From the NCBI RefSeq assembly GCF_037392515.1, contig NC_090287.1, positions 6,183,501 to 6,247,500 on the forward strand: a stretch of 64,000 bases of DNA, given 5' to 3'. How positions within the stretch are numbered: the first letter of the stretch is position 1; each line of letters opens with the position of its first letter. Positions 222 to 44,700 of the stretch are shown here, one piece after another. The DNA is from Haliotis asinina. Its lineage: Eukaryota > Mollusca > Gastropoda > Lepetellida > Haliotidae. A program made the translations under genes and the position numbers. Below the pieces are notes generated by a model that worked only from the letters and a program-made list of their open reading frames with translations, ran no database searches and had not been told where the DNA came from.

Positions 222-3200
222 ACAATGTGGGCAATGCTCTTGAGCGTTTGAAACCGGAGGTAAGTTTCTGAAAAAACTGAACAATAGTTTATTGTAAATT
301 GATCAGAACATTAGGTTTTTCTTTAAGTAATGTTCCCCTTCACCCATGTAATCAGTTATGGTGTCTACAACATTACCAATAATTTCAATATCATGATGTA
401 TCGCTACTTGCTACTTCACTCACAGTTAGAATCACCTTGTATCCAGTCTAACAATGATGTTGTTCATTGTTGCCATTCTGAGTGTGGTATAACTAGTGTT
501 ATTTGCTCTTCTCCAGTACATCTGCACCTGGCTGCAGGAGGTGATGAAGACTCACTTTGAGGTGGTGGTTTCATGTCTGCTGCCGCACCCAGTAGAGTAC
601 TCCCGTGTGGGTGGAGTCTGGTGAGTACTGATGGGGAGATATTGCAGCTCGGGTGATTTGTGTGTAATCTTGTGTTTCATTTCATATATCAGCTTCAACA
701 TTGCTACCCTGCTGTAAACAGGTCCATAAACAATAAAACAATTCTTTTTCTCAAATAAATACATCCGTAATTGATTCTAAGACGGTACATCATGGCTGCT
801 ACTATTTCTGATTTTTTTTCTACAGTATCATGCATATTTCTTATCCATACATATGACAATATGGTCCTTATCTGGAGCCCTGAATTCACTAATTTTCAGT
901 ATCACAGCACACAAAATATACTTCCACAACAAATTCATTGTCCAACAATTTTTTTCTATGTGATGCTCAGAATTTGTCAATCGGCCACATGCATTTGTTC
1001 AACCATTTGGAATTATGTTTGAGTGTGATGAACTTTATGCAGAGACGGAATAACTATGACAATTTCTGTTGTCAGAAAATTTGATAGAAAACATTTCATG
1101 ATAGAAACATTTCGTGTCAGATAGAAGTGTTTGTTACTTAGCATGATGTGGAAATGTTTATGACTGATTAATGTGTACATCCTCTAGGACGATGTATAAT
1201 CACATCTTTTTCACCGTAGGGACACACTGGCCACGCGGACCACGCAGATCAAGGAGGGACTCAATTGTTTCTTCTGTCTTGTGCCATACATTATTTCATT
1301 TGAGGTAACCAAATATATAAAATTATAATTTATACAGGACATTATGTAATATGAGGAACCTTTAGTCTTTAGCGACATTGTTTTGTTATCCATATTGTTA
1401 GATATCCATACATATTAACATCATCAGGAGTACTGTGATAGATTTTCTGTGATAAAGGTACAGGTGAAACAGACACTGCTTGCATGTTCTGAAGATTCAA
1501 CAAGTCAGTGACTTGTTTTACTGATTGTTTAGGACTAACATGTCTCTTTATCATCTTAGATGTCTTTCTCTATGTAAATATGTCATGCTCAGCAATATCA
1601 GTCAATATCAGTGATTTTGCATTATTAATGAAAGTTGGGGAAACAGCTATGTATGGCCTGTTAATGAGCAAGTTGTCATTGTAGATCTGGGACTATGTGA
1701 TGCCCTACTGGCTGGAGGCGATCAGGACTGAAGTTCCTGAAGATGAGCTGAGTAAACTCAAGGTGTTGCTCAGGTAAGGAGGAAGGGGACCTCAGGAGTA
1801 GACAGAAGTCATCTATGGTCATGGTTGAATGTTTTACTGGTTGAAACTATTGTCTTGAATGTCATTTATGCCTTATCTGTGACATGGTTGTATACAGAAT
1901 TTAATAAATGTTGATACATCATTTTCAGCAAAGCGTTTGACATCGACATGTGTCCCCTGCCATTCAGCTTGGACAAGATGTACCACTTTGTGACAGACCG
2001 CTTCAGTGATAGCAGCGCCTCGGTCCAGGAACAGGCCCTTCAGTGGCTGCAGGTACGTCAAGTAGCACCTGCGTAGACAGTTCGCAGCAGGTATTTTATT
2101 TAGCTCCAGTATGAACAAAAGGCTTCAGGTATGTCAACTAGCACATGTGTAGACTGAAGGTATGTCAACTAGCACATGTGTAGACTGAAGGTATGTCAAC
2201 TAGCACATGTGTAGACTGAAGGTATGTCAACTAGCACATGTGTAGACTGAAGGTATGTCAACTAGCACATGTGTAGACTGAAGGTATGTCAACTAGCACA
2301 TGTGTAGACTGAAGGTATGACAACTAGCACATGTGTAGACTGAAGGTATGTCAGTAGCACATGTGTACACTGAAGGTATGTCAACTAGCACATGTGTAGA
2401 CTGAAGGTATGTCAACTAGCACATGTGTAGACTGAAGGTATGTCAACTAGCACATGTGTAGACTGAAAGTATGTCAACTAGCACATGTGTAGACTGAAGG
2501 TATGTCAAGTAGCACATGTGTAGACTGAAGGTATGTCAACAGGCGTTTGCATGTAGACAATATGAAGGAGGTAAATTATCACAAAGTAATTTACTACGAT
2601 GATTTTGAGTCCATGTTAAAGTGTGAAGCAGTACTAGAGCCTTAGCTAGTGATGCATCCATGTGATATGCTTGCTTCTGCAGATCCTGTCCAGCCTGGAC
2701 ATAGTAATCCCCATGCACCTGCTGCTGAAGATGTTCAAGATGGGGGTGGAGCAGATCAACTCCGACCCTGAAGATGCCACGGAGGGCCACACCCACAACA
2801 TCCTGCCCTCCAACTCCCCCGTAGATGACTACCCACCTCCCCTGAGTCCTGAGCGGCAACCCCACTACAACAACTCGTTCGAGGTCTATGAGCGAGAGAC
2901 TGAACTCATCCTTCCATGCTTCATCATGCAGTTGGACATGTGTCTCAAACAGGTGGGCAGGGATTCTGGACAGTCAGGAAATAGTTTGTAGTATAGTTAC
3001 AGCACACTTGAAATAACTGGTCCAAGTCCAGACCAAATCTCAAAAGCTCATTTATCTGAGACCCAGTAAGTTTTATTTTAAGGGAGGGCTGAGGATCTGT
3101 TCAACCACTATGAGGATCTGTTGAACTTTTCATGGAACTTTATTTAGGAGTCTAAATTATGGCCTGTTTTGAGGAAAGGTCTTTAACTTGTTCAAAATGT

Positions 3201-6200
3201 GGATATTTTTAGTTTTCCATTTCTTACTTCAGAAGTATCTCAGCATCTATTTATTTCAAAATTACATTCAAAATATAATGGTCAATTGAGCAGTAAAACA
3301 TATTTTATGTCTTGGTTTTCCCTATGCCCCCATCAAAATCTGTAAATGGGGTATTGAAGTAACACTATCAGATCTCTTCTGTTGTTTACAGATGGAGCTA
3401 CAGGAATCTCCACCACATCTAGGTATCTATAATGAGATGAGCCGTGAAGTGATGCAGCTCCTCACAGGGATGTTGCGTAAGGAGTGGGATGGTCTGCACT
3501 CGTGCACGACGGAACAACAGCGTGTCAACTGTGTCTTCTGCCAGAACATTGCTTTGTGGCACCAGCTGGCAACTCAGCTGATGGAACACATCTGCCCTCG
3601 GGACCCGCTCAAGATACCTGCAAAGGAGTTGCCGAAAGTGGAGGAGATCCGCCATCAGACTATACCAGAGTCCAGTAAGTCAGGAGTGATGACATATAGT
3701 TATGGAAAAGTTTGAGCACCATCCCTTCTAAATTTCCATATTGGCCCAATTCCACATCTTTTTGAAGTATCTGAATATCTTATTTTAGAAAATCTTTCAC
3801 CTACCAGTTGACATGATATGTCATACTACTCATGGGTCAACTGTGAAGATCCGGCTTAGAACTGATCTTCAGCAACCCATACTTGTGGTTAGAGGCGGCT
3901 ATTGGGATCGGATGGTCAAGCTTGCCGACACATGTCATTAGTGCCCAACTGTGTAGATGCTCAAGCTGTTGATCAGTTGATTGTCTGTAAACAACAAATC
4001 AGTCGACCAGCTTACATACATGTCATGTTCTTTATCTTCACATTGAAGTGTCGGGGTAACTCACATAACAACCTGTGTCTCACTATTGATAATTGCATTA
4101 AGTCCTGTATCTTCACAGTGAAGTGTATAACTCACATAACAACCTGTGTCTCACTATTGATAATTGTATTAAGTCCTGTATCTTCACAGTGAAGTGTATA
4201 ACTCACATAACAACATGTGTCTCACTATTGATGGGTGCATTAAGTCCTGTATCTTCACAGTGAAGTGTATAACTCACATAACAACATGTGTCTCACTATT
4301 GATAAGTGCATTAAGTCCTGTATCTTCACAGTGAAGTGTATAACTCACATAACAACCTGTGTCTCACTATTGATAAGTGCATTAAGTCCTGTATCTTCAC
4401 AGTGAAGTGTATAACTCACTTAACAACCTGTGCTGTTACAACAGCTGACAGCAATGGTCAGGAGGAGCGAGAGACGAGGGAGCAGGACTTTGATGTGATG
4501 ACAATGCCGGTCTATCTGCAGCTGTATGACATGCTACTCAAGGTGAGTTCAGGAAACTTGACATCCCATAATGATTCCAGTATAGGTTCAGTTTTCAACA
4601 AACTTAGGTGCCGTTTGAACAGTACACTGTTTTCTTTGTGAGTTTGAAAAGACAAACAAAAGAGAAGAAGGTGTATTCAGTTTATGATGATGTACAAACA
4701 ATCCTTGTACACGAGTGACTGGGGACACAGTTTTTTGTCATCATGATGAAAGACTGCCTGGTCCCATGTTGCAGTATCTTATGGATACCCCACTCCTACA
4801 CCTTATACTTAGCCCAAGCTGACCAATTCTCCTTTTACCCCAGTATTCCAAGTTCCAGCCAGGCAAACAAATATGCTGTTTATTGTCTTTTGATATGATC
4901 CAGCTAGGACAAAAAGCACTCATCATCATATGCTTGGCTGTTTTGTAGAGTCTGTGCAGTGTGACTGATGTTGATGCTCTATTCGCGCTGCTGATGTCCA
5001 TGAAGTACCTGATCCTGCATGGCGAATGTCTGAACTACACCATCAGCCAGTTTGGGGGCTTCATCAAGTTCACATTCCGACGGAGGCTCATACCAAAGTT
5101 TGTGGCCTACAATACTTTTATAGTGTATCTCTGTGCGTATTGATAATGGAGTGCTTACTGTAAGGGGATGTGGGGCACAATGTTGTGTGGGGTAGCCTAG
5201 TGGTTAATCATTCACTTGTTTGACAAAGACTGGTTAGATTTCCCACATGGGTACAACGTGTGAAGCCGATTTCTAATGTCCCCCACTGTCATATTGCTGG
5301 AATACTATATTGTAGAACTAAACTAACTCACTCACTCTGACATTGATGGTGACATGTGTGCCTGTGAACCACTTGGATATATGTTGGTTTTCAGTGCTAG
5401 TCCAGTTAGAGACCATGTTTACTTCTGTCTTACAGCCTGTGGAAGCTGCTCCAGGCTGAACACTCCCAGCTGGCCACAGTCAGCGTCCCCCTCTTGTTGC
5501 ACAGTATCACCCTCCCGACCGGTGCCGACATCCTGTGGAGGCTGGTAGAGGAGGACTTTGGCAATGATGACTGGAGAGCTAGATTTGCTGCAGGTAATGT
5601 AATGCGAAGTAGGCAAATAGATGTATATATACTGCTCCTTGGGGGATATCTCTCCATGATCTCTATGATACATAAAACTGATTCCAACTAAACACTTCCA
5701 GGGAAAAGGTTATAACCTTGAAACTGTGCATGAACCTGTGTTGTAGTGGAGAAAGTGACTGTGCTGTCCCGCTGTCTAGAGACCGACTCCATTCGCAATA
5801 ACCAGGTGATCATGACCGGTCTGTCCCACGCCTTCTGTCATCTGATTGGCTCAGTGGAGGACATCAATGCTGCGGTGGCACAGAAGACCATCATGTTCCT
5901 AGAGACAATCAGACCAGTAGCACTCAGAGTGAGTTATGTTATCATGCCAACCTGTCTTCACAGCCTGTCTTCAACAGTGGAGACCAAACATTGGTTTGGA
6001 TGGTTTGGAAGAATAAGGAGGAGAGCTGTTTTGTTATATGGAATTACAAGCTTAGTTAGAATGAGATGGCGAATGACATGCTTTGTCAGTGGTAACTATT
6101 TTGATTAGATTAAAGGGCAGTTGGGAAGCCTAGTGGTTTAAGTATTTACTCGTTTGGCTGAAAGCCCAGGTTGGATTCCCCACATGGGTACAGTGTGTGA

Positions 6201-6762
6201 AATCCATTTCTTGTGTTTGATGATATTTCTGGAATATTGCTGAAAGGGGTGTAAAACCAACTTACTTTGGTTATTTTTCATGTCTCTGCGGTAAACAAGT
6301 TATTTTGTATTTGTGTTGATAAAATGAATAAGTGTTGCATACTTTTTTATAATACTTTTTGTGTTCTTATTGGTTGATAATGATTAATATTTTTTATAGA
6401 AAAGAATTTGACTAAACATGAATGTTTCTGTTCAACATTACCTTAATTGTTTCAAGGCCTCTTGCCTTAAAGATAATCTTAAAGTTTCTCAGGCCATTTA
6501 GGCACTGTGACAGGAATGTGAGATGGCTGCCAAATTCACCTGATTGTCCTTCTGTTTCAGTGTCTTTGTCAGTGTCTGGAGTTCCAGTTTGACTCAGTCA
6601 TCAATGACCGCAGCATGATACTCCATCGCATGCAACTGCTGGCATCGGTGCTACCAAAAGAAAATATTCTCTCATGGGAATTCTTCCTTAACCGTTTTGA
6701 CACTTTGTCCCTGGAGGCACAGCTAGACCTGGAAACAAGTGGTGATATATCTTGTCTTACAG
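222..6762 (+). CDS. UNC79: UNC79 exons 1-12 of the visible part
   Basis: Exons: 222-259, 517-620, 1220-1304, 1685-1773, 1929-2052, 2683-2952, 3392-3674, 4445-4542, 4949-5097, 5436-5593, 5747-5928, 6561-6762. They encode visible residues 1 to about 594. Recognisable blocks are KPEYICTWL, VGGVWDTL, WLEAIRTEVPEDEL, DIDMCPLPFSLDKM, CFIMQLDMCLKQMELQ, ILHGECL, GADILWRLV, AVEKVTVLSRCLE and FDTLSLEAQLDL, each with a clear vertebrate UNC79 counterpart. Exon 9 appears to use a weak donor (GTTTGT at 5098), chosen because it alone keeps phase with exon 10 and ends at the expected homology border. The linker in exons 6-7, rich in Pro and acidic residues, is where the human protein has a different Ser/Pro-rich insert. 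Confidence 0.92.
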
Positions 6763-9643
6763 GTTCCAACCCCTAGAAGCTACCAGCGACTTACCTCCGA
6801 CCATACCTCACCCTCACTGTCTGTCTGTCTTTGTGTCTGTCCATGCATTCCTAGAGACCTGTAGGAATTCCTACCTTGTGTAGCCTGTATCCGGGACCAG
6901 GGGAGTTTTGGCACTTTTAAAGACATTTAGTAAATTATAATTTTGTTGTAATAATTTTAAAGGACTACTACTTCTCTCTCTTCTATGTTAGTTAAGCTAA
7001 TAGTTTAATTAATATAATTTTATTATTGTCTTAACTGTATATTACGTATGTTGTCATTTAAAAAGAATCAAGGTTTTGGAAAATGTTTGCAGTTAACACT
7101 ATGAATTAATGAATGTAGTAATTTCTCTTTTACTGTCCAAGAAATATTCAGTGTAAGGATGTCACTTTCTAAAAATAATTTCTTAAATTTAAACTCCCCT
7201 GATCCCTACATAGCACCATTGCACTGGTACCCTGTGTTTTTTTGCATTGTTTATTTCATATCCCCTCCAGTTTGTCAACCTTTGTTGCTTAGCAATATGG
7301 CATCATCATCTTGGGTTCTAGTTCCCCAGCATCACCACTCAAATCTATAGAATCTCAGATGCTTCTCTTTTAATATTTTAGTATTATTTCTAACAGTTCT
7401 TAGGATAACAGATTTTCTAGGGTTTAGGTTCCTGAGGAAAGTTCATTTAAACGTTTTCTCCTCCTGTTAGTAATGGTGAATTTCTGAGTTGTCTGCCTGG
7501 TGTGAGCATGGTCTTCTAGCTTTGTCCTCAGTGAGGGTAATGCCTGCCTTGTCTGTGTTCTAGAGGGCGACGCTTCAGCTGCATGACCTCTCAGCATGAG
7601 AGTCTCGGCTCCGAGCATGAGTAGGGAATTAACAAATCAAGGTAATTCAGTATGGTTTCTTTTCAGATCTGAGTGGAAGCGATCGACAGAGTGAACACTT
7701 TCTTCGGAAACTGAATCGGGCGAGGTTTGCATTAGCGAGGACAGACAGTGTCCGGTCGGTCAGCGAAAGCTTGAGAGGCAAGCCTCCCTACAGGAGAGCT
7801 GTGTCAGTACCACTGCATCTTATTACCAAGGGAACAATTCCACCAAAACGTAAGAGAAGATGCAGAACTGCTTCATTATTTGTAAGCTTATGTAATATTT
7901 AGTAATGAATATTACAACTTCTATTTGTATTGTTGATCTGAGACCAGAAATCTGTAGAGATAAGAAATGGTGCATTATCTGTACTTTGTCTAAACATTTT
8001 GTTTGGTTGTGAGACAATTAATTGGCCCCCTTATGTCAATGAGGTTGAAACAGATATGGTAGATGGGAGGAGAGGTTTGTAGAAGTGATATGCCCAATAG
8101 GCCTAAGGTCATTTGACCAGTCTTGAATATATATTACTACCTGGATTATGCCTGTGACAAATACTGATGGTGCGTCAAGATGTAATTGCTTAACTGGAAA
8201 TGTGAATTTATTTTCATGTCCTAGATCAAATTCATGTTGAAGTTCGGTAAGATGTATAGAAAGACATCAGCAAGTGATACCAGTGTCAGACCACCAACTA
8301 CATCACAGCAACGTTAGTCACAGTACCATTGCAAAACCAACAGCAAGTAGATAAAGCAATTCAATATTTCTTGTATCTTTTCTGCTTTCCAAAGATCTGT
8401 TAAGGGCTGTGGTGTAGGAGAGGTATTTGTCTGCTCTGTGTATCAGAGGACTCTGAAACACTATAGGGCCATAGAAAGAAGTCCAACACTAATTGCTATT
8501 GCCGAAGACACAGATGAGGAAACTGTCTCTTGTTCTTCATATCGATGTATACTTTACTTACATAGTCCAACATTCATTTGAACCAAATCCTTTACAAATG
8601 AAAGCAAGGTGCTTTGGAGAGTGAGTTTAAGAATTGCGAAACAGCATTTGCCCCTTTCCTCATGTTTTATTAGAAATGAAACTGTATATGCTGTTGATAA
8701 GGAACAGTGCACTGGGAGTTAATGGTTGTCAGTCTCCATGTGTTTTCACTGACAGCAGATGCCCATGTACAAGCGTCAAGAAAACGACATTCTCTATATC
8801 CGGAATTATTTGTTGAAGGTATACGTAAGTCCAAACACAACCCCTAGTCAGTTTTGAATTTTGAAATTTCTGCTGAATGTTGTTGCTGTGTTTTTAAATT
8901 TGTTCATGTCTTTTGCTTACACTGTGGGTTATCAGTAAATTTGTCCCATTACCAGGGAACATTAGTAGCCCCTAGGTCTAAGGTGCCATAACATGCTGTG
9001 TGGAGTTACATCCCTTGACTATACTGGATCCTCTGGTCAAAGGTTTGAACTCGGACTATGATCCATAATCAATGCTTCTGTGCTTGCAGGTTATTAAGTC
9101 TTAATGACTCTTACCTGCATCTTCTTCTCTTCCTCACTGATTCAGCTGACACACCCTATATCACTGTAAAGTAAACTCACTCACTCACTCACTCACTCAC
9201 TCACTCACTCACTCACTCACTCACTCACTCACTCACTCACCATTGTGACTCCATTCCTCATTCAGCTAAAGCATGACAAGTGGTCCCATCACCATGCACT
9301 GTTTTATCTTTGTGAGGTCTTCATGTTGATCTAACCCATCACATTGTCAGAATAACAATAATACACATGTCTTTATATTAAATACTGTGTTACACTAGAT
9401 TTTGCAAGTTTTCTCTCGAGTTTGTGGATGATCTTATTGCACCACATGCACGCAACCACAAAATAGTGTACTACTTTTATAGTTTCTTTTTGCAAGTTAT
9501 ATGCATTAAGTATGAGGCATGTCATCATCGTCATTGTCATCATCATCATCATCATCACTGTACATTGTCATCATTATCGTCTTCTCCACCCTGCTAAGAT
9601 CATGCTTTAAATCAGTACACAACTATCTGTAGATTGTGAAATC

Positions 9644-9699
<56 letters not shown>

Positions 9700-12600
9700 T
9701 TCCACTTCGATGAAACCTGTCATGAAATCAGCATAGAGCTCTACTTAGCTTGTGGTAGCAGGAGAATAGGGTGGATTTGGTGCTAAGGATTGATGACTTG
9801 ATGTACTCTGTGTCATTGTACCTTAGTGGTGTGGCTCTCTTCAGATTGCATTATATATTTGACATGGCGGAAATAGTCCTCACTGGCATAAGTTAAAAAA
9901 AACAGGTTTAACTTTTATATTGCAGCATTATCATGCTTCTGCCAGAGAATTGTAAAACACATGAGGAGTAAGCACACTTTCTGTAATATTATACTGGGTA
10001 TACTTAAATAATATTTGTTTTCTCCATAATTGCCTTGTATGAAAAGTAACAGTTGTATCTGTCATGATGTATTTTTTTGACCCACTCACACCTGGTTGTC
10101 TCCTGCTAGTTGACCGGGAGAAGTCCTACATTCGTCAGAAGTCTGCTCCACAGTTTAGTCTGACCAGGCGGATGACATCAAAGATGAACCTTGGCTCATT
10201 TGGAGGCATGATGTTTCCAGGTACCACAGTCCAGTGAAAGATAAATACTAAGATAAATGCAGAACTGTTTAAGGGAACTTTAGCAATATGTGTCAGCCTG
10301 TTCCTAAGGTTACTGCATCCTGCATATTCTATATCATCTGTGAAGCAGAAATGTGTTTGGATGAAATTTGCAAGATTGCCTGGAGAATTCTGAACCTATT
10401 TCAGATATTGTTATCATTGTAGCTATATTGAAAATGACCATTTGTCCATTACTTGACTATTTCCTGTTTGTATTTTTATTTAGTATTTTAGTATTCTTGT
10501 TGTTTTGCTGTATCAGTTTTCCTTTATTTATATTTGCAGTTTGGCAAAGCTCTGTTATGACCATCACAGTTTAGAGTTCAGGACTATTACTGTGTAATAC
10601 AGAGTCTTTGGACTCTCTTCGTTTTCATCCACCCATGTTTATGTATGAATTCCATATTTCATTAGAAGAATGGTTATTGCCTGTTCACCACCTAGCATAA
10701 GCTGTTTGATCCCATGTAGAACATTGCCCCCTACAGGCGGCCAGTTGCGGGAGTTCACAGACGAGGAGAGTAACTTTGCAGCCCTGCTACAGCGAGCCAT
10801 GGACTTGGATGGGGTGGACCGAGACACTGTGTACCAGCTCGTGGCGCTCCTGATGAAGGTAGTGCTGCTCAGCATATACATTGTATAAGGTTGTATTTTG
10901 TGTGTGTCTGTGTTTTTATAGAGTTACTGTGAGATGCATACCCCACTCAGACACTATACTTGTGGGGTGGACCGACACTGTGTACCAGCTCGTGGCGCTC
11001 CTAATGAAGGTAGTGATGCTCAGCATATAGCTTGTATAGGGTTGAATTTTGTGTGTGTCTGTGTTTTTTAGAGTTACCCCCGTGTGATACCATACTCCAC
11101 TGACACTATACTGACTCTGAACATGCTAATTACTTTTACCCCATAAACATGTTATTGTGGAGCACAGGTTATGGTAAAATAGGGTTTAATGTATTTGGTA
11201 TGACATGACCAGTGATGATAATTAGGATACACCCATAAGGTTATCAGCACTGTAATTACACTGATGTTTGTTTCTGTTCCATTCTCTTCTCACATAGACA
11301 CAAATAGCTTTGAGATGTGAATGCAGTCACTCTTTAACTGAGGTTGATGTGATGTGTATGAATCAAACAGGGCTGATAATGGATGTACTAGTGATGTCAC
11401 ATGTCAGGTGCTCCATTGTCCAAATGCGTTAGTAGCAGGCGACTTCCTGTGGGCCTGACGATAAAATAGTAAGGCACATGTAGGTATTGAATTACATGTT
11501 GGTCTTGGGCACCTGTTGGTATTGGATCACCAGTTGGTATTGAAGCACTTGTTGGTATTGTCCACATGTCGATATTAAATTACATGTGTTTATCGGCACA
11601 TGTTGGTACTGAACTGCATGTTACATTGAATTACATATGTGTATTGGGCACCTGTTGGTATTGGGTGCTATTGAAGCAAATGTTGATATTGACACTATAT
11701 TGGTCATGTTGCGTTGCAGTTTATGGTGAAGGAGGAAGTGGATGATGCCAGTGAAGATGTCAAAGCTCAGGTAGGCAGTGGAGACTGGTGTGAGTGAGTG
11801 AGTGAGTGAGTGAGTGTGGACAAATGGTTTGGCCTTGCAAATGGGTGGCTGTCAGTGCTAGAATCCAACATTTTGTTGTCTGCAAACATCAAGGATCCTG
11901 GCATCCAAGAGGGAGACAACTACACACAGCTAACTAAATTCTCTCCTGATTCATGATTAACAATCAAAATTCGGATTCTAAAGAACACGCTGAAATTGAC
12001 CAAAACTAATAGTTTCACAGAACATTCCAGAAATCATTGATGTTGATTGGTTTGCCAGGAGCATGGCATGAGGTTTTCGTTATATGACTCAATACTGACG
12101 TGATTGTTACCATGGTTACGTGTTTCAGAATGTTGTCTTGCGACACTTGAATGTGCTTCTGGGATACAACCAGACCGAGAAGTCCTTCAGTGTACCACCG
12201 TACAAGCTTAGGTAACTCTGAATATAGCCTGCGTATTGCCTTACAGACTGTTTCCACTTACAACTGCTATTTACATACAGTGGTTACATTGTGTGTAGTT
12301 TATATCAGGCATAAACATTATATGTTCATTTGTCAAGGGGTAATTCATATTATTCTTTATGCTCCATATTGACTCCATATGAAAAGCTCTTTACCATATA
12401 ATGTCATTCTTACATATGGTAGTTAGAAAAAGATGTTCTCATCTATCACAATCAGTGCTTTAACCATTGCAAGTTCTTCAGGAATGTGTGCAGAGACACT
12501 TTCCTCATAGTGTTTTTGTTAAAAATACTTGTGAAACTTATGCTTTCAATGTTGCCCATGCTGAAGCTTAAGCAAGGCCTATGCCAAACACTGTCACTGA

Positions 12601-33600: not shown

Positions 33601-35446
33601 ACATTGTTGTGGCAGCTGGTGGAGATGGTCAACCTTCACTTTCTGGGACTCATGGAAGCCCTCCAGGAGTGTAACTCTTGTGTCCTTGCCAAGGTAGGTC
33701 CTGTTAAAGTTCATTCATGTATGTGGATGTGGGTGTGCATGCATGCTTGTCTTTTTCCTGTGTAGGAGCCAAACATTTCTTTCACATTTGATAACCATAA
33801 AGCTGGAATATTGCTGATTGTGGTGTAAAACTAACTCACTCACTCACTTTCACATTTTGATGCAGGTTATCGAGGTGTAATGTGGTAAATCCTTTCCTCG
33901 ATATTTCCCAGATTTACAATATTTTGGAAACCCCATTACCCAGTCAGAATAGTATCTAAATAGTTCCTGCGAACTTGTAGTGAATGTAGTGGATAAAATC
34001 TCCTGACTACATGCTTAGAAAAGGAAATGGGAAACTTTGTATTACAAACTTCTGTGCAATATGTTCTGTTCATATCTAAAGGTTTTTAATGATGGTAGAA
34101 TATTCATATTCAATGTGTTCCCTGTTTCAGCTGTTTCCGATGTGGCAGTGCATCCTCTTTGCATACCATGCACAGGTAATAACGTCCTTCTGTATCTACA
34201 CATCCCAGGCCTTATTTCACATTTCTTCTTTGAGAGGCATTTAGAACTTGGGGCAATAAGGAAGGATGACAATATGTGGACAAATGACTTCTCCATTGCT
34301 CTGAGAGCAATGTTTCGGTGTAGGTTCAAGCACTGTTATCAAGCAAGTGATAAACAATATAAGGATAGGCTTCACCATCCCTGTGTGTATTTTGCAGGTT
34401 TTATTTGTTACACTTTTGTCAAAGCCCATGTGTTGTTACTGTGTCTGGCTTCCTTATTCCTTGTAGTACTAAACAAACATCTCCTTTAACTTGTATATAT
34501 GCTTCTCTATCCTTATACTGTTCATCATGTGATAACGATGTTAGAACCTACTCTGAAACATTGATCTCATAGTAGTAAAGAAGCTGCTATCTATTTATTG
34601 TCATTCTTCCTTATTGTCACATTATTGTACTCATAATGAGCCTTTTACTGTACAAGGAATCCAATGGGGCATAGGCATTCTTGATGACTGGAAGACTGAT
34701 TGACTGCTGTTTCTGCAAACAGCATATGTCTCATGTGAAGGAGTGGGTGTCACAGCTCTGTCTGAAAAGTCTTTCAGTCATGGGAACTTGATGTAGGAGG
34801 CTTGATGTAGGGGGCTAGATGAAACTTGTCTTTGCTGTAATGTGGCTGGAATGTTTCTGACTTCACTCATTTTGTTTGTATGAAATACGTTAACAATAGA
34901 AGCAAGGGTCCTTGTCACAACCAAAGATGCCAAGATTGAAATCCTTTACTGCTTACTGGGTTTTGTAACACTAACATATCTAGCTGATCTCTTTTTTACT
35001 CTGATGATCTAGGTTAGAACTGATCTTGAGTAAACCATGATTGTCACACAAGACGATGAATGGTATCTTGTAGTCAGGCTCCTGGCTTGGTTGACGGGTC
35101 ATATCCCAGTTGTATAGATGGATGCTCATTATGTTGATCACTGGATTGTCTGGTCCAGACTTGGTTATTTACAGACCACACCCAAATAGCTGGAATATTG
35201 CTGAGTGTGAGGTTAAGAAACAAACCAACTGAAGTCCACGATGGTGTAATGTTGATGCTGTTACAGTTGCCGGGACATCTCCATGTGAGATTACAGATGT
35301 GCCAGAACTGGGAGCCACCGCACCCAACACGGGACCAACGCTCATTCAACTCCACCATCCTCCTCAACTGGCTTAAGAGGATCCAGTTCAAGCTTGGGCA
35401 GATCGAAGTCCAGTCGTCAGCAGCGACACAGTTTTACACTGTGTGA
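222..35446 (+). CDS. UNC79: UNC79 (NALCN channel auxiliary subunit), 3' part, 38 coding exons
   Basis: UNC79 is the large cytoplasmic HEAT/armadillo-like scaffold that, with UNC80, binds the sodium-leak channel NALCN and sets neuronal resting excitability. Joining 38 GT-AG exons gives 5,498 nt in one unbroken frame (about 1,831 residues) that aligns from memory with vertebrate UNC79 to its C-terminus. Matching stretches include EAIRTEVP, CPLPFS, LHGECL, WEFF.NRF.TLSLEAQL, RCAECGAVLEQYD, LPWLYHPPSAMQQG and the terminal QSS.A.QFY. The first visible exon starts with the last two bases of a codon, so the gene begins upstream; about 500 N-terminal residues are missing. All exon phases agree across the 37 introns, which strongly supports the model. 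UNC80 was considered, but the conserved blocks fit UNC79. Exons are listed in the four block entries. Confidence 0.95.
2126..2542 (+). repeat. 31-bp minisatellite copied from the exon 5 donor region
   Basis: About 13 full copies plus a partial copy of a 31-bp unit, one copy a base shorter and a few with single substitutions. Each unit reads CTGAAGGTATGTCAACTAGC onward. It resembles the real exon 5 end and donor at 2047-2080 (CTGCAGGTACGTCAAGTAGC onward), so the array appears to come from the exon/intron junction. Most units carry an AAG|GTATGT donor-like site. Confidence 0.93.
3838..4000 (+). mobile_element. SINE fragment in UNC79 intron 7
   Basis: Diverged 5' two thirds of the same SINE: AACTGATCTTCAGCAACCCA, GAGGCGGCTATTGGGATCGG, GTTGATCAGTTGATTGTCTG. 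The tail is missing. The 71-bp repeat array begins just downstream. Confidence 0.7.
4030..4436 (+). repeat. 71-bp tandem repeat just upstream of UNC79 exon 8
   Basis: Five to six copies of a 71-bp unit, with the marker CCTGTATCTTCACAG at 4104, 4175, 4246, 4317 and 4388. The array stops a few bases before the true exon 8 acceptor (AG at 4443-4444). Each unit contains a pyrimidine-rich run ending in CACAG, a plausible decoy 3' splice site. The unit length is not a multiple of three. Confidence 0.9.
5185..5340 (+). mobile_element. tRNA-derived SINE, second family, in UNC79 intron 9
   Basis: The head GGGTAGCCTAGTGGTTAATC resembles a tRNA A-box region, and GGTTAGATTTCCCACATGGG the B box. The body continues TATTGCTGGAATA and ends in ACTCACTCACTC. 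It is distinct from the other SINE at the 5' end but shares the 3' tail, as families mobilised by one LINE often do. Confidence 0.75.
6118..6272 (+). mobile_element. tRNA-derived SINE, second family, in UNC79 intron 11
   Basis: AAGCCTAGTGGTTTAAGTAT, GGTTGGATTCCCCACATGGG and ATTTCTGGAATATTGCTGAA match the copy at 5185. The TCAC tail has decayed. Confidence 0.7.
7667..16515 (+). CDS. UNC79: UNC79 exons 13-23 of the visible part
   Basis: Exons: 7667-7849, 10110-10220, 10737-10858, 11720-11770, 12129-12211, 12867-12909, 13443-13625, 14082-14226, 14682-14995, 15583-15919, 16347-16515. They encode about residues 595-1174. The start is basic (LNRARFALARTDSVRSVSES), matching the human RARFAR/SVRSLRDSV segment. 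It continues with YQLVALLMKFM, LNVLLGYNQ and WLRALLVILYKYH. Exons 20-23 encode a long Ser/Glu/Lys-rich, low-complexity region with little conservation, the equivalent of the disordered middle of vertebrate UNC79; here splice phase and coding openness are the main evidence. Exon 23 is cut at the GTATGG donor (16516), because that phase fits exon 24. Confidence 0.88.
9170..9241. repeat. (TCAC)n microsatellite
   Basis: About 17 TCAC units in UNC79 intron 13, preceded by a SINE-like tail (ATATCACTGTAAAGTAAACTC). It is probably an expanded SINE 3' end. Confidence 0.85.
9535..9700. repeat. (ATC)n trinucleotide tracts
   Basis: Two runs, 9536-9558 and 9643-9698, of CAT/ATC repeats with one or two interruptions, in UNC79 intron 13. 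The remainder of that 2.3-kb intron (7850-10109) shows no other feature I can support. Confidence 0.85.
10798..11068 (+). repeat. Duplicated 3' half of UNC79 exon 15 with its donor
   Basis: The segment 10811-10911 (exon 15 end, donor and first 50 bases of intron) is repeated at about 10966-11068 with few changes. The copy keeps GTGTACCAGCTCGTGGCGCT and the GTAGTG donor. It has lost two bases in the coding part, so it cannot replace exon 15 in frame. A partial duplication nested in the intron is the simplest reading. Confidence 0.85.
16840..25483 (+). CDS. UNC79: UNC79 exons 24-33 of the visible part
   Basis: Exons: 16840-17073, 17603-17641, 17821-17936, 21455-21540, 22013-22252, 22543-22653, 22997-23101, 24163-24342, 24615-24793, 25294-25483. 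They encode about residues 1175-1667, a strongly conserved helical-repeat half. Landmarks: the paired-cysteine motif RCAECGAVLEQYDDDTIG, FLRCVLHQLAPNGIFP, ILEPFSKLLSFAIQN, ERDKLILTRTVIYELVQALK, EFITDLHTLTKVK, RYLPWLYHPPSAMQQG and FIDCIGHIRLLSWLLIGSLT. The intron between exons 26 and 27 is expanded to 3.5 kb by an inserted 2.8-kb inverted-repeat element (18296-21084). Exon 28 has a weak acceptor (tract ending CTGAAG at 22012) but the homology border is clear. Confidence 0.93.
18296..21084. mobile_element. 2.8-kb inverted-repeat DNA element in UNC79 intron 26
   Basis: 24-bp terminal inverted repeats with one mismatch, GAGCGGTGTCGGGTATTACC onward at 18296-18319 and its reverse complement at 21061-21084, are flanked on both sides by TA (18294-18295, 21085-21086). 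Inside, near the right end (20765-20875), a related motif (TTCGGAATAGCCCGACGTCA) recurs about four times, like subterminal transposase sites. No transposase reading frame is recognisable, so it is probably non-autonomous. The superfamily was not identified; a TA target would fit several cut-and-paste groups. Confidence 0.8.
21541..21692 (+). repeat. Short tandem repeat starting at the exon 27 donor
   Basis: About eight degenerate units of 19-21 bp alternate between GGTTCATGTTTCACCAA-like and GGTTCATGTTCCACTGA-like forms. The first unit begins at the splice donor itself (GAG|GTAGGTTAATATTTCACC), so the array grows out of the exon 27 junction at 21540/21541. Confidence 0.75.
22214..22362 (+). 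repeat. 39-bp tandem repeat of the exon 28 end and donor
   Basis: Exon 28 ends in a segment coding SICNVR followed by GTAGGT. A 39-bp unit containing TCTGTAATGTCAGG then GTAGGTGGCAAGGGGG is repeated two to three times downstream, the last copy incomplete. The first two downstream units stay open in the exon's own frame (adding VGGKGVPSVCNVR-like blocks) before a stop. Each unit offers another GTAGGT or GTAAGT donor. Confidence 0.85.
23330..24130 (+). repeat. Degenerate repeat of about 185 bp in UNC79 intron 30
   Basis: Four to five diverged copies, each with the order AACTTGGTAGATATGTATAG, GTGGTGCCTTTTGC, TTTACAGGTTTTTGTGATTT, TTTCCATGGAAACGTTT, then ACTTAGTCTCAAAATGG. It fills most of the intron before exon 31. 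No coding potential was seen. The palindromic core CCATGG with flanking TTT/AAA recurs in each copy. Confidence 0.8.
24890..25010 (+). mobile_element. SINE 3' fragment in UNC79 intron 32
   Basis: Contains TCAATCACTTGATTGTCTGG and CAGCTGGAATATTGTTTAAT, the 3' half of the SINE found at 32651. A similar but shorter remnant is at 25888-25970 (CACTGGGTTGTCTGGTCCAG), and another trace at about 22785-22812. Confidence 0.6.
26501..35446 (+). CDS. UNC79: UNC79 exons 34-38, C-terminus and stop
   Basis: Exons: 26501-26551, 29296-29436, 33616-33693, 34131-34175, 35267-35446, with TGA at 35444-35446. They encode about residues 1668-1831: HMSSLFHAFILCQ, LWTMYCE, FWARVTPGILQLL, MEALQECN, LFPMWQCI, then NWLKRIQFKLGQIEVQSSAA ending FYTV. 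The vertebrate protein ends with a near-identical KWLQCTQFKMAQVEIQSSEA segment and FYPL, so the stop is in the expected place. All five exons are short (45-180 nt) and phase 0, so any could be skipped without a frameshift. Exon 34 is followed directly by a 1.3-kb array of copies of its own end. Confidence 0.94.
26508..27838 (+). repeat. 44-bp minisatellite copied from the end of exon 34
   Basis: About 29 extra copies of a 44-bp unit follow exon 34 without a break. The unit carries the last 35 or so coding bases of the exon (CATGTCATCACTCTTCCATG onward, ending GTGCCAG) and then GTAAGC/GTAAGT. Copies differ by a few substitutions, and some units are one base longer. Nearly every unit has a near-consensus CAG|GTAAGN donor; only the first keeps the UNC79 frame into exon 35. 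Confidence 0.96.
29437..33615 (+). other. UNC79 intron 35, no gene seen apart from one SINE
   Basis: A 4.2-kb AT-rich intron. Apart from the SINE at 32651-32929, I found no coding exon, inverted-repeat element or tandem array. Intron 34 after its repeat array (27840-29295) is likewise featureless. Confidence 0.6.
32651..32929 (+). mobile_element. SINE, full-length copy with 12-bp target duplication
   Basis: The element starts ACCCGTGAAGGTC, passes through GTAAGAGGCGACTAATGGGA, GTTGATCACTGGATTGTCTG and CTGGAATATTGCTAAGTGCG, and ends in TCAC repeats. The flanks CCATGGTGTGTT (32639-32650 and 32930-32941) are identical, which indicates target-primed insertion by LINE machinery and a fairly recent date. 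It sits in intron 35 of UNC79. Confidence 0.9.
35003..35222 (+). mobile_element. SINE, diverged copy directly before UNC79 exon 38
   Basis: Shares the TTAGAACTGATCTT head, TTGATCACTGGATTGTCTGG and AATAGCTGGAATATTGCTGA blocks with the full-length copies, but the TCAC tail is lost. It ends only about 45 bases before the exon 38 acceptor at 35266, so it forms the intron's 3' part and may supply the branch-point region. Confidence 0.8.
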
Positions 35447-36740: not shown

Positions 36741-37144
36741 ATCTGGTATGAAGAGTACTTTTGAGGTGATTTTTACTGATGTACATGTCTCCAGTGTCAT
36801 GGTTTGATCTGACTGTCACCAGTCGTTTGCCTTTGTTGACATGTTCGCAGAAAAACTTGAAATGATGACACAAAGCATTCAGTCATGCTGAGTGGTCAAA
36901 TGCTTCTATAAAGCTGGAGCTCACTGTATCAAAGACTTGTAGATGTATTACGTTACGTCTGATTGTCAGTCATGGTAGACTCGTTATATCATGATTATCA
37001 GCATTCATTTTCTTTGTGACATGGGTGACAATCAGCTGATAACTGCAAAATTCTCAACTCATTTGGACCAGTACTTCTATGAATCTATTATTTATCACCA
37101 CACTAGTCAGGTTTTCTACAGTGCAGACAGTAGTAACATCAACC

Positions 37145-37947
37145 ACAGGCAAACTGTAGCGCAAATGGGTTGCACAGCATAGATCGAGAGAATGACCAGT
37201 CTTCTTTCATGCGAGCGAAGCGAGCAAAGGTTGACAGCATACTTTCCTCGCTTCAGTTCGAAAAATATTTTTCATGTCAAAATAAAATATCGCTACTATC
37301 AAAAGTTTACACCTATTTCTTCACTTGGTTGTGCTCTCACGTTTTCAACCCCAATTACTCATGTGAAATATTTTATATTCAACATTTTAAGCGCAACTTG
37401 TGGTAGATCAGACCATTCTTCGCCTCCATTACCCCTTCCAGCGTCCGGTTCAAAGGAGTGAAGGAACAGGAGGGTATTATTCCACATGGAACACTTACAG
37501 TTACCTCCCCTGCTTCATTCGCTCATTACGCCATAAGTGTTTTTTATGTAGAATAAATGTGAAAATTCTAACAATAGCGACGACAGATAAGACAAATAAA
37601 CCCCAACAGGTTCATGATAAAATTAGGCAATATGGTATTCCTTTTCAATTTCTGCTTATTCTTGTTCCGTCACTCTGTTCAACTGGAAGTTGGCGCTTAA
37701 AAAATTGAATAAAACATATTTCACGTGAGTAATGTTAAACATGAGGTAGGAAATAGGAGAGCACAACTATGTGAGGAAATGGGAGTGTATCTTTGATGGT
37801 GGCAATATCTTATTATTAGATGAAAAATATTTTTCGATTCGAAGTGAGGAAAGTATGTTGCCAACCTTTGGTGGCTTCGCTTGCATATATGAAGACTGTC
37901 ATATTCTCTATGCTGCGCAACCCCATTTGCTCTACAGTTTGCCAGTG
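37145..37947. mobile_element. 803-bp MITE with long terminal inverted repeats
   Basis: Terminal arms of about 250 bp each (37145 to about 37405 and about 37690 to 37947) are imperfect reverse complements. Shared blocks include GGCAAACTGTAG, AGCAAATGGG, CAAAGGTTG and CGAAAAATATTTTTCAT. The element is flanked by an 8-bp direct repeat CATCAACC (37137-37144, 37948-37955), the target length used by hAT elements. There is no transposase. It lies in the convergent spacer between UNC79 and the SLC22 gene. Family assignment rests on target length only. Confidence 0.78.
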
Positions 37948-38381
37948 CATCAACCTAAATTACAGTATTCACAGTATTTTGGTGTGAGGAACCATAGCAT
38001 GTAAATAATAGACAGAATGTGGATGAATTTGTTATAATGTATACAGTCAAACATGAGGAATTTATTATACTTCCTCACAATGATGCTTCGGTATGTGTTA
38101 CGGGATGGTGAGGCAATGCAAGGTGTGTTGATTTTACAAGAGGTATATTTATACTATGTACCTTTAACAACTATTTACAGATGAGCTGGTTACTTTATAA
38201 GAAGAGTTTTGTATGTGTATATACAACTATATATGTTGATACAACTGTTGTTAGTATTTATTGTATAGCCTATTAAAACCAGTTGCTCCTTTGCCATACA
38301 CGTGTTTGGATTATTGACTGCAATATAAGCTTGACTTTTGGTGTATATGTTGTTTGGGTTACACTCTCTCAGTAAAGTATA

Positions 38382-38574
38382 CCCGTGAAGGTCTGGATTA
38401 GAATATTGACCTTCAGTAACCTAAGCTTATTGTAAGAGGCGACTAATGGGATCAGGTGGTCAGGCTCGGTGACATGTTTGCTGATCACTGGATTGTCTGG
38501 TGCAGACTATTATTTACAGACCACACCTAAATAGCTGGAATATTGCTGAGTGCTAAACTCACTCACTCTCAGCA
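38382..38574 (+). mobile_element. SINE, internally deleted copy
   Basis: Starts ACCCGTGAAGGTC, keeps GTAAGAGGCGACTAATGGGA, CTGATCACTGGATTGTCTGG and TAGCTGGAATATTGCTGAGT, and ends in TCACTCACTC. The middle is shortened relative to the copy at 32651. It lies downstream of the SLC22 stop codon, possibly in that gene's 3' UTR (opposite strand). Confidence 0.8.
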
Positions 38575-38755
38575 AAGTAATGATTCTGATATCTTTTAGG
38601 GTTGAGTCTAAATCTCGGATTCAAACCCATACTCAAAAATGAACCGTAATTGATTGGTCCAGACAACATGGATAATATTCATTTTTATGTGCATCAAATA
38701 GGTCTTGTGTTGCCAGGCAGCAGGCAATATATGGACAAGGCAGACTTCACATTCA

Positions 38756-41700
38756 CTAAGTGTTCGTTGGGGTGGTTTGGTTGCAATTCTCCACCTGTGA
38801 ACGTGAATATGCATCTTCAAGTGGTTTCTTGGCCGTTTCCTCCAACAGGAACGGAAGTCCAACGTTGGTCAGAATCAGGATCCCCATCACTGCATAAGGT
38901 ACAACCAGGCCATGCTCAGTCTGGGGAGAAAATCATCAGGGGATGATACACCAGTCCCCATGAACGGCTCCATACAACACCATGTAAATGGCTCTTCAGA
39001 ATAGAATTTGGTTGGAACCGTTGGTACCTTTGATTACAAGGAGCACGAACATTTCCTTCTTGAAGTCAGTATGACCAACACTTTAATAGGACAAGGTATT
39101 GTAAGGGAGCATGCACTATATTGGGGGCAAGAACACCCACCTTCAGGACTATATATAGGGCCAGACTCCTTTCCATCATGAGCATATTAGGGTAGCAAAA
39201 TCAGGATCACATTAAGGGCTAGGATACCTAACATCAGCACAATAAAGGGACATTTATATACGAGGCACATAAACTGTGCATACACAAATTTAAAATCTAA
39301 ATTTATCAAACCTGTGTAGACATATAAGGATTTAAAGTCGGTGATGAGTGACCTGTATCCGACATGCATGCACATGCCACGTTCCGTGACGTCAGTGGTT
39401 TTGTTCTTGAGACGTGCAATATGTTGTTGCACGTGCATTCCGGAGAGAGAAACAGAGCAAGTAAATGCCACACAATACTGGCACTTTGGAACGAGCCAAC
39501 CCCTGCCCTTGCGATCGTTAAAAAAATTAAACGGCTGTTGAAACAGATTGCATGCCGTGTCTAACTTCTGCACAACGTCATGAGGCCATTGGGATGATCA
39601 ATGGGGGAATGTCTCAAGGACAAGTGGCTGCGCATTTCAACTGCCACCGTAACAACATTTCTACACTGGTGAGACGCTACCAGAACACAAATGACGTCAT
39701 CGATCGGCCACGTTCTGGATGCCCACGTGTAACAACGCTAAGACAGGACAGGTGGATAAGGGTGACCCAACTTCGCCACAGGTTTCAGACTGCAGTGTTG
39801 ACTGTCCGGACCATTCCAGGATAGTGATGGACGTCAGCGTGTCTATAGACGCGTGAGAGAATGTTATGCACAGGCCTGTGTCTTGGAGAGGTGGTGGTTC
39901 CGTGATGATTTGTCGTGAAATAACACGCCAAAGAACTCCTTTGGTGATTGTTCAGGGCAGCTTAACTAGTGTTGGCTACAGGAATCAGGTTCTTCGACAA
40001 TTCCTTTTCTGCAACGCCATGGTTCTGGGTTAACATTCCAACAGGACAATGCCCGCCCTCATACGGCAAGGGTTTCTATGGATTTCTTGCAACACCACAA
40101 CGTTGACTTACTGCCTCGGCCTGCAAATTCATACAGAGCATAATTTGGGGCGAGATGGATCGACGTCTACGCCGTCTTCCTCATCCGCTAGATAACGTCC
40201 TTGACTTTGAAACAGAATTTGGCGTGACATCCCACAAGCCTTTATTGCACGTGTGATAGGCTCAATGCGTCGCCGATGCACTGCTGTTTCCAATGCCGAT
40301 GGTGGATACACCCGTTATTGAGCTTGTGACATGGTCGTTTGACCCCTGTCCCGCTTGTGGACTCGTGACGTCATTGTGATTGACTATTCAACTGAAACGT
40401 TTTATGGCCTCATGATTCCTCCATTAAAGTTTATAATTGTTATCGTGCTTATCAACTGGGATATTTTTTTGGACAACGCAGTTTCTTTATGTGACTAGTG
40501 TATGTACGACATGAGAACAAGCTATGGACAACGGTTTTCCCCTTTACCGAAATGGAGAAGAAATATCCACCATCAGGACCACAGAAGGAGCAGAGATACT
40601 CACCATCAGGACCACAGAAAGAGCAGAGATACTCACCATCAGGACCACAGAAGGAGCAGAGATACACCCCATCAGGACCATAGAAGGAGCAGAGATACTC
40701 ACCATCAGGACCACAGAAGGAGCAGAGATGCTCACCATCAGGACCACAGAAGGAGCAGAGATACTCACCATCAGGACCACAGAAGGAGCAGAGATACTCA
40801 CCATCAGGACCACAGAAGGAGCAGAGATACACCCCATCAGGACCACAGAAGGAGCAGAGATACACACCATCAGGACCACAGAAGGAGCAGAGATACTCAC
40901 CATCAGGACCACAGAAGGAGCAGAGATACTCACCATTATGACCACATAAGGAACAAGGCTACTCACCATCAGTACCATATATGGAGCAAGTATACTCCCC
41001 AGTCCAGCTGCTATGTTACATGCACTAAGACCAAGTGTCCTGAATGAAAAGAGAGATAACTCTATGGGTTTGACATTAAGCAAAGCAAGTGTGAGTGAGT
41101 CGGCACATGTATGGGTGTGTGAGTCAGTTAGTGAGTGCACAGTTTCCGAGTGTGTTTGTTGTCTAACTATCCAGACGATTTATCATGGCATTCTTGATTC
41201 AGCTGCATACGTAAAAGCTACACGGTATATAGTGTACAGCCCTGGCTTGTATAGGATCATCTGCATTCAAATGAAGTCTTGAAAGCCTGTGCAAAAAAGT
41301 AACGTGTCCGTCGGTTAGGTGAATTTGAGAATCTGTCAGTCCATGTTGAAAATAACCAGTCCCGAGTTAGGCAGGTATTTCGAACGCTGGTCGAGTCACA
41401 TCAGAATCGAAATCTCTCACTGAAAGTCAAAGCCTAACAGCCAGCACACAAAATCAGAGGTCTAAGCCACTCTGGAACTCATTGTTTTATTCATGTCTCA
41501 TTGTCTGGTCGCGTGTAGATGAGAGTGTGCTGACTGACCTGATAACTGTAGGGTAGTGTTCGGCAGTGAACACTTTCATGGCCGCCCAGGCAACCGTCAC
41601 CGACATCTGAGCAGTCAACGCCAGAGAAAAGTTGATTGTTGGCAAACCAGCAAGATCTGTTTAAACAACATTAACCTAAGTCAATATCTTTTCAGACAGA

Positions 41701-44700
41701 CTAGACCCATGTGCGAGTGACTCAATAGTTTTAAGCATTGCAATTCGTTGTGGTAAGACCCAGTGCTAGGATCCAACACTAGGTTCGCCCTTGCTGAGAC
41801 GACGTGTGTCACCAAAGTAGAATGTTTCTTCGACCTGCATCGGTTTGATTGCAATGGCATCTCGCACTACTTACAGCATGCAGTTACTTAAACACTTTTA
41901 TTATATTGTATGGCATATTTATACAAGTCTTGGAACTAGTATATGCTCAAGGCGCTGGGTTTTCCCCTCCATCACTGGATGTCAGTCAACGACAGATCGT
42001 ATCATCCATCTCAACTCTCTGGGTACGTACGACTCTTGCAGCCACTAGACACAAAGATTTATTGCGGCTTTCCAACCTTCTCGAGGTGCCCATTCACAGA
42101 TGGGTGGACTGAGACACAAAGTCACAGTACTTTGTCCCAGTTTACTGCACATTGCTGTGCGTTGACCCAATTTTAGTAAGATAGCCGATTGAACAAGGCG
42201 ACGCCAAAGGTCCAGCAGCCTCGGTTCCTTAAATGGGTACAATGTGCGAAGCCTATTTTTCAGTTGATATTGCAGTTGATAATACTCTCTGGCAACGGGT
42301 ACATTCACCAGGAAACGGTTGGTACACCGACAACAGGCTGACACACCGACAACAGGCTGGCACACCGACAACAGGCTGACTCACCGACAACAGGCTGACT
42401 CACCGGCAGCAGAGCAAGCAGCAACAGTGAAGCAGGCGACGGAACACAGCAGGTAGAAACAGAAACTTGTCCAGCGACGCCCGATCCTGCAACACGCATC
42501 ATATGGCTTTCTAATTTGTGAGAAGTGGGTCACATGATCACCTTGATCATGATATTTTATGTGCGCCGTCCGACATAATGCAAATGTTTGGATGGGGGAG
42601 CGTACCTGTCGTTTAAGTAAATGACGATTGGAATTCTGGGTAGGCCTGTAAGACCCGTAAGGGTGATGTTGAGGTAGACACTTCCGACCCAGGTCCGTGC
42701 GCCCAAAGACAACCCATAATACATCACACTGGAAATGAACCTGCGAAGATAATCCCATGTTACATTATGCATTTAAAACCCCTCTTCTAGTATATTCTTG
42801 GTCATTTAATATGACTGTATCTGAAAATTAAGTAGCGTAGGGCCTCGACCCTTATCTACGAGGCTGTCAGGAGAGAGAGAGAGAGAGAGAGAGGAGTGTG
42901 AGTGAGTGAGTGAATGAGAGTGGTTTTACGACGCCTTTAGCAACAGTCCATCAATAGCACAGTGGAGGACTCCGGAAACTGGCTTCACACTTTGAACACA
43001 TGTCGGGAATCAGACCCAGCATGAGGACAGAACGCTTTAAGCACCAGCCTACCTCAATGCTCCATTTTAGTTAGATAATGCTGTTGTATTAGTGACCAGT
43101 GAATTTCATTGATAAATCTGTTTTTCTTTTCTATCGCGACGCAGAAACAGAATAGCAATGTGCAAGTTGGCGAATATTAGAATATTATTTTATACTTAAT
43201 TGGGGCCAGCTCAGTTGTCACTTGTACCCTGAAATATCTCCATCATGTATATTTATAGCTTCCTGTCATGAATTAGTGAGTGCAACATTGCTTAACGACC
43301 ATACAAGCCGTTCATACAAGTGTTCAACTGCAAAATACTTGAAGTATTCTTGTGATAGTGACAGCAAGGCAAAGAAAACCAAACAAATTCAATAAGCATG
43401 CCACTTGACGGGGCTCCATACAGATTCCTACCACATTGCATGAAACACGGCAGCAGTTTTGATCTTCTCCTTAGAGTTAAAGAGGTGAATAAACGTATAT
43501 TTCTTCTGCAGGGCGAGCAAAGTCTGCTCATGTTCTGCTATCATTTGTAGCTGGCTCAGGTCCGGGGTTTGGATCTGGTTCATCTTTATAATCCTGTTGA
43601 TTGACCTCTTCGCGTCATGAACACGACCGCGGGATAACTGCCACCGAATACTTTCTGGAAAGAGTCTACAATGATAAAGCAATTTATTTTGTGTACCTTT
43701 TCAACCTTAATACAGGAGGGAAATGTGCGCTTGTTGGCTAACGCATCTGTCAGTAAATTCCCAGTATTAGCATCTCCCGTCAAATCTAGCTCAGGACCAG
43801 ACATGTCCTGACAATCACCCCGTGTCGTATCACGATATCAAACACGACCATAAGCTCCATCAGGTCACTTCAAGAGACCAACTCTAACCCAAATTATAGA
43901 CAAGGATAGGACAACGTTTGGAAGGGGCAACATTTAACAAGTTCCAAAACCGTAAGCTGAAAAACAATCGAGCTATTTAAATCGAGTTACATAGCTATTT
44001 TCCACTTTACCGTTTCCTTATCTACATAGTGATCTAACGACACAAGGGCACTTGGAGAACCTTTAGGACTCGATGGACAACAGTTTTTATATTTTCATTT
44101 CCAAAATTTGATCCCAGACGTGAAACCTGCACCTGTCCCCTGTCCACACGTGAATGAAAGCATGGACCTATTCTAAGGGGGTTAAAGGTGAATAAAAACA
44201 TTTTGTTTGTACATATATACTATCTCCAAAAGGAAACGCATACGCGATTTGTATTTTTAAAAATCTATTAATTACCTATTGTGTTCACTTAATCGTCAAA
44301 ATATGAAATAAAAGTGTTGATAACATACTTTTACACAATTGCACAAGTAAACAATCGATTTAACCAGAAAATGTTTATTTTGATGTAATTTCTGACAAGG
44401 ATTAGAAAGGCATCGCCACAACGCAACGGAAATCACCTTCTATTCGAAACTTTGCAGCAAAGAGCATTCACTGTCTGGCAGTAAAAATTCAGATTACGTT
44501 CAGAATTTGGCATTCATTGTGGAGGAGTTTTAAAGTCAAATCACTACGTCACGTATTGTCTCTGCGACGCGGAACATCGCCATTGAAAGAATACATGCTG
44601 AAGATTACCAATCTTCTGTTGCCATGCGTCTAAATGTTAGTCTGAGCAAGATATCATTGACTGCAGCTCAAACCAAACAGGCATAACAAATGGCCGTTGC

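Follow-up and report, generated by a model that had tools for sequence, protein, structure and literature searches.

Organization of the locus

We analyzed a 64,000-nt stretch of DNA from contig NC_090287.1 (the window), in which tandem repeats lie at the 5′ splice sites (donors) of seven introns belonging to two genes, one encoding UNC79 and the other an SLC22-type transporter. The genes were rebuilt from the sequence alone, using a coding model that was seeded on clear exons and followed by exons set by hand and checked for frame. A gene finder trained on long open reading frames was dropped because of heavy overprediction. As the choice of exons was steered by frame-keeping, the open frames are partly open by construction, and homology provides the independent check. 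When only the first donor of each intron is used, the UNC79 model comprises 1845 codons and is free of stops up to its terminal stop codon (Table 1); three parts of it match Protein Data Bank (PDB) chains annotated as 'Protein unc-79 homolog' (E 1.5e-120, 1.5e-47 and 1.3e-118). Exons 13, 14, 25 and 29 and most of exons 21-23 lie outside the UNC79 homology, and exons 18 and 37-39 were absent from the queries; the placing of introns at exons without homology cover was based on frame together with coding potential and splice signals. The SLC22 model contains the Pfam domain Sugar_tr and matches PDB chains of carnitine transporter 2, OCT2 and other SLC22 members (best E 1.6e-43). Together, the two genes have 45 introns, where an earlier sequence-only reading of this DNA had counted about 47, and these introns amount to 35,824 bases with a median of 500. 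Rfam and tRNA scans of the window gave no result.

Tandem repeats at or across seven donors

The sequence-only reading had named seven donors as sites of tandem duplication, those of UNC79 exons 5, 15, 27, 28 and 34 (the last being exon 35 in our rebuilt model) and of SLC22 exons 5 and 7. We confirmed that sequence is tandemly duplicated at all seven, either at the donor or across it, with units of 31, about 155, 17/34, 39, 44, 19 and 33 bp, respectively (Table 1). The repeats had been described as starting exactly at the exon-intron junction, but most of them straddle the donor, with edges from −56 to +2. Relative to the first intron base, the 5′ edges given by Tandem Repeats Finder (TRF) are −40 for exon 35, −35 for SLC22 exon 7, −14 for exon 28, −9 for SLC22 exon 5 and +2 for exon 27. 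The repeat copies include exonic bases at six of the seven sites, namely exons 5, 15, 28 and 35 and both SLC22 exons, and not at exon 27.

Exon 35 is the plainest site, as the final 40 exonic nt make up most of its initial 44-bp unit; the array's 31 listed donor-like sites include 26 that read CAG/GTAAGC (the slash marking the splice junction). At SLC22 exon 7, the last ~30 exonic nt are a diverged copy of the unit, and the TRF edge falls 35 nt within the exon, while the SLC22 exon 5 array extends 9 nt into its exon. At UNC79 exon 5, a diverged copy lies on the donor itself and is followed by 48 bp of other sequence and then by a homogeneous array, which begins 74 nt into the intron. Exon 15, which ends at position 10858, carries a duplicated block that is not listed by TRF and whose edge lies at −56; the exon-derived part of its second copy lacks two 2-nt stretches, so that the frame is broken. 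The exon 27 unit, given before as 20 bp, measured 17 bp (34 bp as a dimer). Across the arrays, the centres are homogeneous and the edges diverged, including the exon copies at exon 5 and SLC22 exon 7, as in ordinary minisatellites.

The description of these introns as ladders of donor-like sites holds for part of the set. Strong ladders are present at exons 5 and 35 and at SLC22 exon 7, and short ones at exon 28 and SLC22 exon 5, whereas exon 15 has a single repeated site and exon 27 has none. The proposal that the units arose independently is supported: shuffling gave a best p of 0.01 among the 55 pairs that can be formed from 11 array units, which is about the chance expectation for 55 tests. 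This pairwise comparison thus showed no significant sign that the units share an origin.

Table 1. Coordinates of the donor repeats, the genes that carry them and a dispersed repeat in the window
Feature	Position	Strand	Remarks
UNC79 exon 5	1929..2052	+	
Single diverged 31-bp unit at the exon 5 donor	2047..2078	+	27/32 identical to array
Exon 5 array, 31-bp unit	2127..2540	+	13.4 copies; unit start AGGTATGT; TRF
Exon 15 duplication (~155 bp), copy 1	10803..10957	+	56 nt of exon, donor, 99 nt of intron
Exon 15 duplication, copy 2	10958..11112	+	intronic
Exon 27 array, 17/34-bp unit	21543..21692	+	AGGTT units; no further strong donor; begins 2 nt inside the intron (exon end 21540)
Exon 28 array, 39-bp unit	22239..22346	+	first unit 14 nt exonic and 25 nt intronic (exon end 22252)
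Exon 35 array, 44-bp unit	26512..27840	+	30.2 copies (TRF); exon end 26551
SLC22 exon 7 array, 33-bp unit	40554..41001	-	13.6 copies; across donor (exon end 40967)
SLC22 exon 5 array, 19-bp unit	42320..42412	-	4.3 copies (TRF 19-bp row); across donor (exon end 42404)
UNC79 gene	222..35446	+	39 exons placed, the 5′ part lying beyond the window; stop codon 35444-35446
SLC22-type transporter gene	38756..46412	-	8 coding exons, 505 amino acids, single terminal stop
Dispersed repeat, (ACTC)3+ loci	5326, 32906, 33834, 38557	+	
Dispersed repeat, (ACTC)3+ loci	42911, 50786	-	

Predicted use of the first donor

Frame and homology predict that the exon-proximal first copy of the donor is probably the one used. 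The mammalian UNC79 PDB chain has no extra residues across the joins that follow exons 5, 15 and 35, and past the end of exon 27 it runs directly into the start of the next exon (GLNNKKNLP). When compared with carnitine transporter 2, SLC22 joins 5/6 and 7/8 are free of insertions at the join itself, with 2- and 3-residue gaps near join 5/6. Homology is therefore consistent with the first donor at six of the seven sites. In a position weight matrix (PWM) scan, the first donor likewise scored at least as high as all other scanned sites at six of the seven. Later donor-like sites were taken at a PWM cut-off of 3.4-5, and the extensions that they would add to the exon contain a stop in 14 of 14 cases at exon 5, 2 of 2 at exon 15, 28 of 29 at exon 35 and 3 of 4 at SLC22 exon 5.

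A proposed mirage-like origin for the donor repeats

We consider it fairly likely that the repeats, as minisatellites that straddle donors, belong with those called mirages, having been born by duplication across a donor and tolerated with the first donor working. A short tandem duplication, probably arising when short direct repeats mediate slippage or repair, would capture the last bases of an exon together with its 5′ splice site. With the exon-proximal donor still active, the mRNA would be unchanged and all further copies would be intronic. Released from coding constraint, these copies could expand and be homogenized by unequal exchange, and the exon copy would persist as a conserved, diverged edge. 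Since splicing normally takes the AG nearest downstream of the branch point, a duplication that crosses an acceptor would be likely to lengthen the mRNA, and hence to be lost; through such a selective filter, donors rather than acceptors would come to be crossed. The duplication mechanism, the use of the first donor in vivo and the selective filter are all three what we infer. At exon 35, the 44-bp unit is flanked by a 7-bp direct repeat, GCACATG, with one copy exonic and the other intronic, the arrangement to be expected if short repeats had mediated the slippage or repair.

The structure has already been named, as it fits the mirages described in amphioxus. These are minisatellite-like tandem duplications across exon-intron boundaries, with units of 10-160 bp, and the available text of the two reports places them in Adh3, the globin genes BflGb6 and BflGb9, troponin C and PGBD5 (PMC3087553, PMC3902484). 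According to the same text, splice signals occur in many, not all, of the copies, and the boundary copies escape homogenization; in one lancelet study (PMC3087553 / PMC3902484), regular splicing was undisturbed, as judged by reverse transcription PCR and Adh3 data. The repeats analyzed here resemble mirages, as far as these have been described in that text, in that their units span the exon-intron boundary (six of seven sites) and in that splice signals are kept in many copies but not in all (strongly at three of seven sites and over a short run at two). They differ in lying at donors in all seven cases, whereas lancelet mirages also occur at 3′ boundaries (BflGb6), and in a copy number of up to 30.

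Other systems can be compared through the portions of the reports available. In human genes of segmental duplications, internal tandem repeats at boundaries can move the limit between exon and intron (PMC2812944); at least half of the variable repeats in that report modify the coding sequence, whereas the extra copies here appear to be intronic. The polymorphic minisatellite in intron 3 of an abalone TSSK1-like gene, which has a 27-bp unit (PMC6905558), is likewise an intronic minisatellite in a gastropod gene, and its position relative to the donor is not stated in the text. The matches listed in our literature search, which left most subscription papers outside its reach, included neither a mollusc mirage nor a survey of donor arrays on a genome-wide scale. 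If the species is a mollusc, mirages would not be confined to lancelets and would be present in another phylum.

Nominal excess of repeats at donors and competing explanations

All of the enrichment statistics are post hoc, as they come from two genes and from a pattern that was picked after being noticed. For the array test, we took the intronic TRF arrays with a score of at least 80 and a period of at least 7 (n = 10) and defined donor contact as a 5′ edge between −50 and +5. Five of the ten arrays touched a donor, and none touched an acceptor when the 3′ edge was examined in the mirror range (sign p 0.06). Random placement of the arrays within their own introns gave 1.12 expected donor contacts (p 0.0014), and placement over all introns gave 0.73 (p 0.0004). 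Raising the TRF threshold from 40 to 140 in six settings reduced the arrays from 16 to 8 and left the donor count at five. For the segment test, a 45-nt donor segment was aligned with the next 300 nt, and an acceptor segment with the preceding 300 nt, at an alignment score of at least 30. Donor segments recurred downstream in 6 of the 45 introns (all of the named sites except exon 27), whereas acceptor segments recurred upstream in none of the 45 at this score, the best score being 18 (Fisher p 0.026 versus donors). Among random intron windows, 3.1% of 7413 recurred when the seven donor arrays were masked (p 0.0026; range 0.003-0.013). Within the window, the donor excess over random placement is nominally significant by TRF placement and less so by the segment test.

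Several results weigh against the mirage-like origin proposed above. When the random windows were left unmasked, 5.9% of 1320 recurred, and the segment-test p rose to 0.048 at score 30 and to 0.089 and 0.17 at scores 34 and 40; at a score of at least 50, recurrence at donors (3/45) compared with 4.2% of random windows (p 0.30). Wider contact windows in the array test gave p values of 0.001-0.011, and acceptor contacts then appeared, with one versus five at donors when 20 nt were allowed and three versus six at 80 nt. Under a neutral filter by itself, about one of ten arrays should touch a donor, compared to the five observed: the selective filter would account for the asymmetry between donors and acceptors but leaves the excess over intron interiors unexplained. 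Of six arrays inspected, one had clear microhomology at its edges. As for the donor used, homology is undecisive at the exon 28 join, where one downstream site also outscores the first donor (PWM 8.1 versus 5.8). Extensions from later donors contain a stop in 1 of 4 cases at exon 28 and in 0 of 9 at SLC22 exon 7, and later donors are open and in frame in 2 of 4 and 9 of 9 cases, respectively, so that longer isoforms are possible at these two exons. We conclude that the excess of donor repeats over random placement in this small sample is suggestive, not firm. A genome-level process that favours the duplication of exon ends and donors, as the sequence-only reading suggested, is neither established nor contradicted by these two genes.

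In the SLC22 exon 7 array (40554-40967, minus strand), the 33-bp units are open in frame and read as VSISAPSVVLM-like repeats. Each later donor unit used at this exon would add 11 mostly hydrophobic residues.

Duplication might instead be directed to donors by the mutational process of this lineage, with an R-loop, polymerase pausing, bound U1 small nuclear ribonucleoprotein (snRNP) or AGGTRAGT microhomology raising its rate at 5′ splice sites. The contact of five of ten arrays with donors, against 0.7-1.1 expected, would fit such targeting, as would the involvement of 7 of 45 introns across two genes and the lack of a significant relation between units, by which the events look independent. 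We nevertheless regard it as unlikely: the sample is small and post hoc, the excess is weak against unmasked controls (p 0.048 to 0.30), and the unit edges range from −56 to +2, hence there is no fixed breakpoint. Arrays also lie near acceptors, though not across them (at 12, 56 and 61 nt), which general exon proximity would fit.

Chance combined with hindsight, in which a few striking arrays near donors in two genes caught attention, seems to us quite improbable. Only two genes are involved, and none of the p values is corrected for the choice of pattern, whether they come from the array windows (0.0004-0.011), the masked controls (0.003-0.013) or the unmasked ones (0.048-0.30). Against this, the count of five was stable at all six TRF thresholds, and like structures have been reported in another animal group, as described in the available text of PMC3087553 and PMC3902484.

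We hold it very improbable that the ladders were selected because additional sites for U1 at the 5′ end of an intron strengthen splicing or prevent premature polyadenylation. Strong donor-like sites are indeed kept in many copies at exons 5 and 35 and SLC22 exon 7. When the mean conservation of the donor motif was compared with that of the rest of the unit, however, the values were 0.995 versus 0.931 at exon 35 (29 units), 0.981 versus 0.987 at exon 5 (13 units) and 0.861 versus 0.962 at SLC22 exon 7 (12 units). Donor motifs are therefore not consistently better conserved than the rest of the unit, and selection for a ladder is unsupported; moreover, exons 27 and 15 have no ladder.

An origin of these introns as such through the tandem duplication of exon segments that contain AGGT, the Rogers model to which the sequence-only reading had linked these repeats, is scarcely credible, since the acceptors lie outside the arrays (61 to 1633 nt past the array edge), acceptor segments resemble the preceding intron in 0 of 45 cases and the aligned exon joins fit the first donor, even if exon end and AGGT do occur together within several units. 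In that model, as given in the available text of PMC4974935, the GT and the AG of a new intron both come from the duplicated segment. The cases treated there (ATP2A1, potato RdRp and fission yeast) share tandem copies of AGGT segments with the repeats described here, in which, unlike those cases, the acceptors are outside the arrays, and we found no signs of newly arisen introns at these donor-array introns.

A broader claim, which we put forward as doubtful, is that 5′ splice sites are hot spots of tandem duplication in this probably molluscan genome, where a sizeable share of introns would begin in a donor-derived minisatellite; the phenomenon would recur across animal phyla through a process linked to transcription or U1, and could lengthen exons in frame, as at SLC22 exon 7. 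Should the donor excess prove to hold throughout the genome, splicing signals and tandem duplication would seem to be linked through mutation or selection, and donor choice among near-identical competing sites could be studied in many natural test cases.

Other repeats in the window

Two or three comparable intronic arrays away from donors had been noted before, which is slightly low, as TRF gives four (starting at 4057, 11472, 20798 and 23506). The first is a 71-bp array of 5.3 copies (4057-4432) that stops 12 nt short of the exon 8 acceptor and whose unit contains the acceptor-like sequence TTCACAG. At the same score and period limits, two intergenic TRF arrays were found, at 55932-56095 (83 bp, two copies) and 57307-57714 (121 bp, three copies), in a stretch without a recognised gene. 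The 8-mer GCACATGT is common to three arrays (2127-2540, 11472-11663 and 26512-27840) and has two plus-strand copies outside arrays.

Six of the eight (ACTC)3+ loci terminate a dispersed repeat resembling a short interspersed nuclear element (Table 1). These six share a common tail, GCTGGAATATTGCT..GTAAAACTAAACTCACTC (pattern GCTGGAATATTGCT..GTAAAAC..ACTC), which matched nothing in the papers and contig collections searched. The tail, in some cases diverged, is presumably typical of abalone and would suggest a gastropod.

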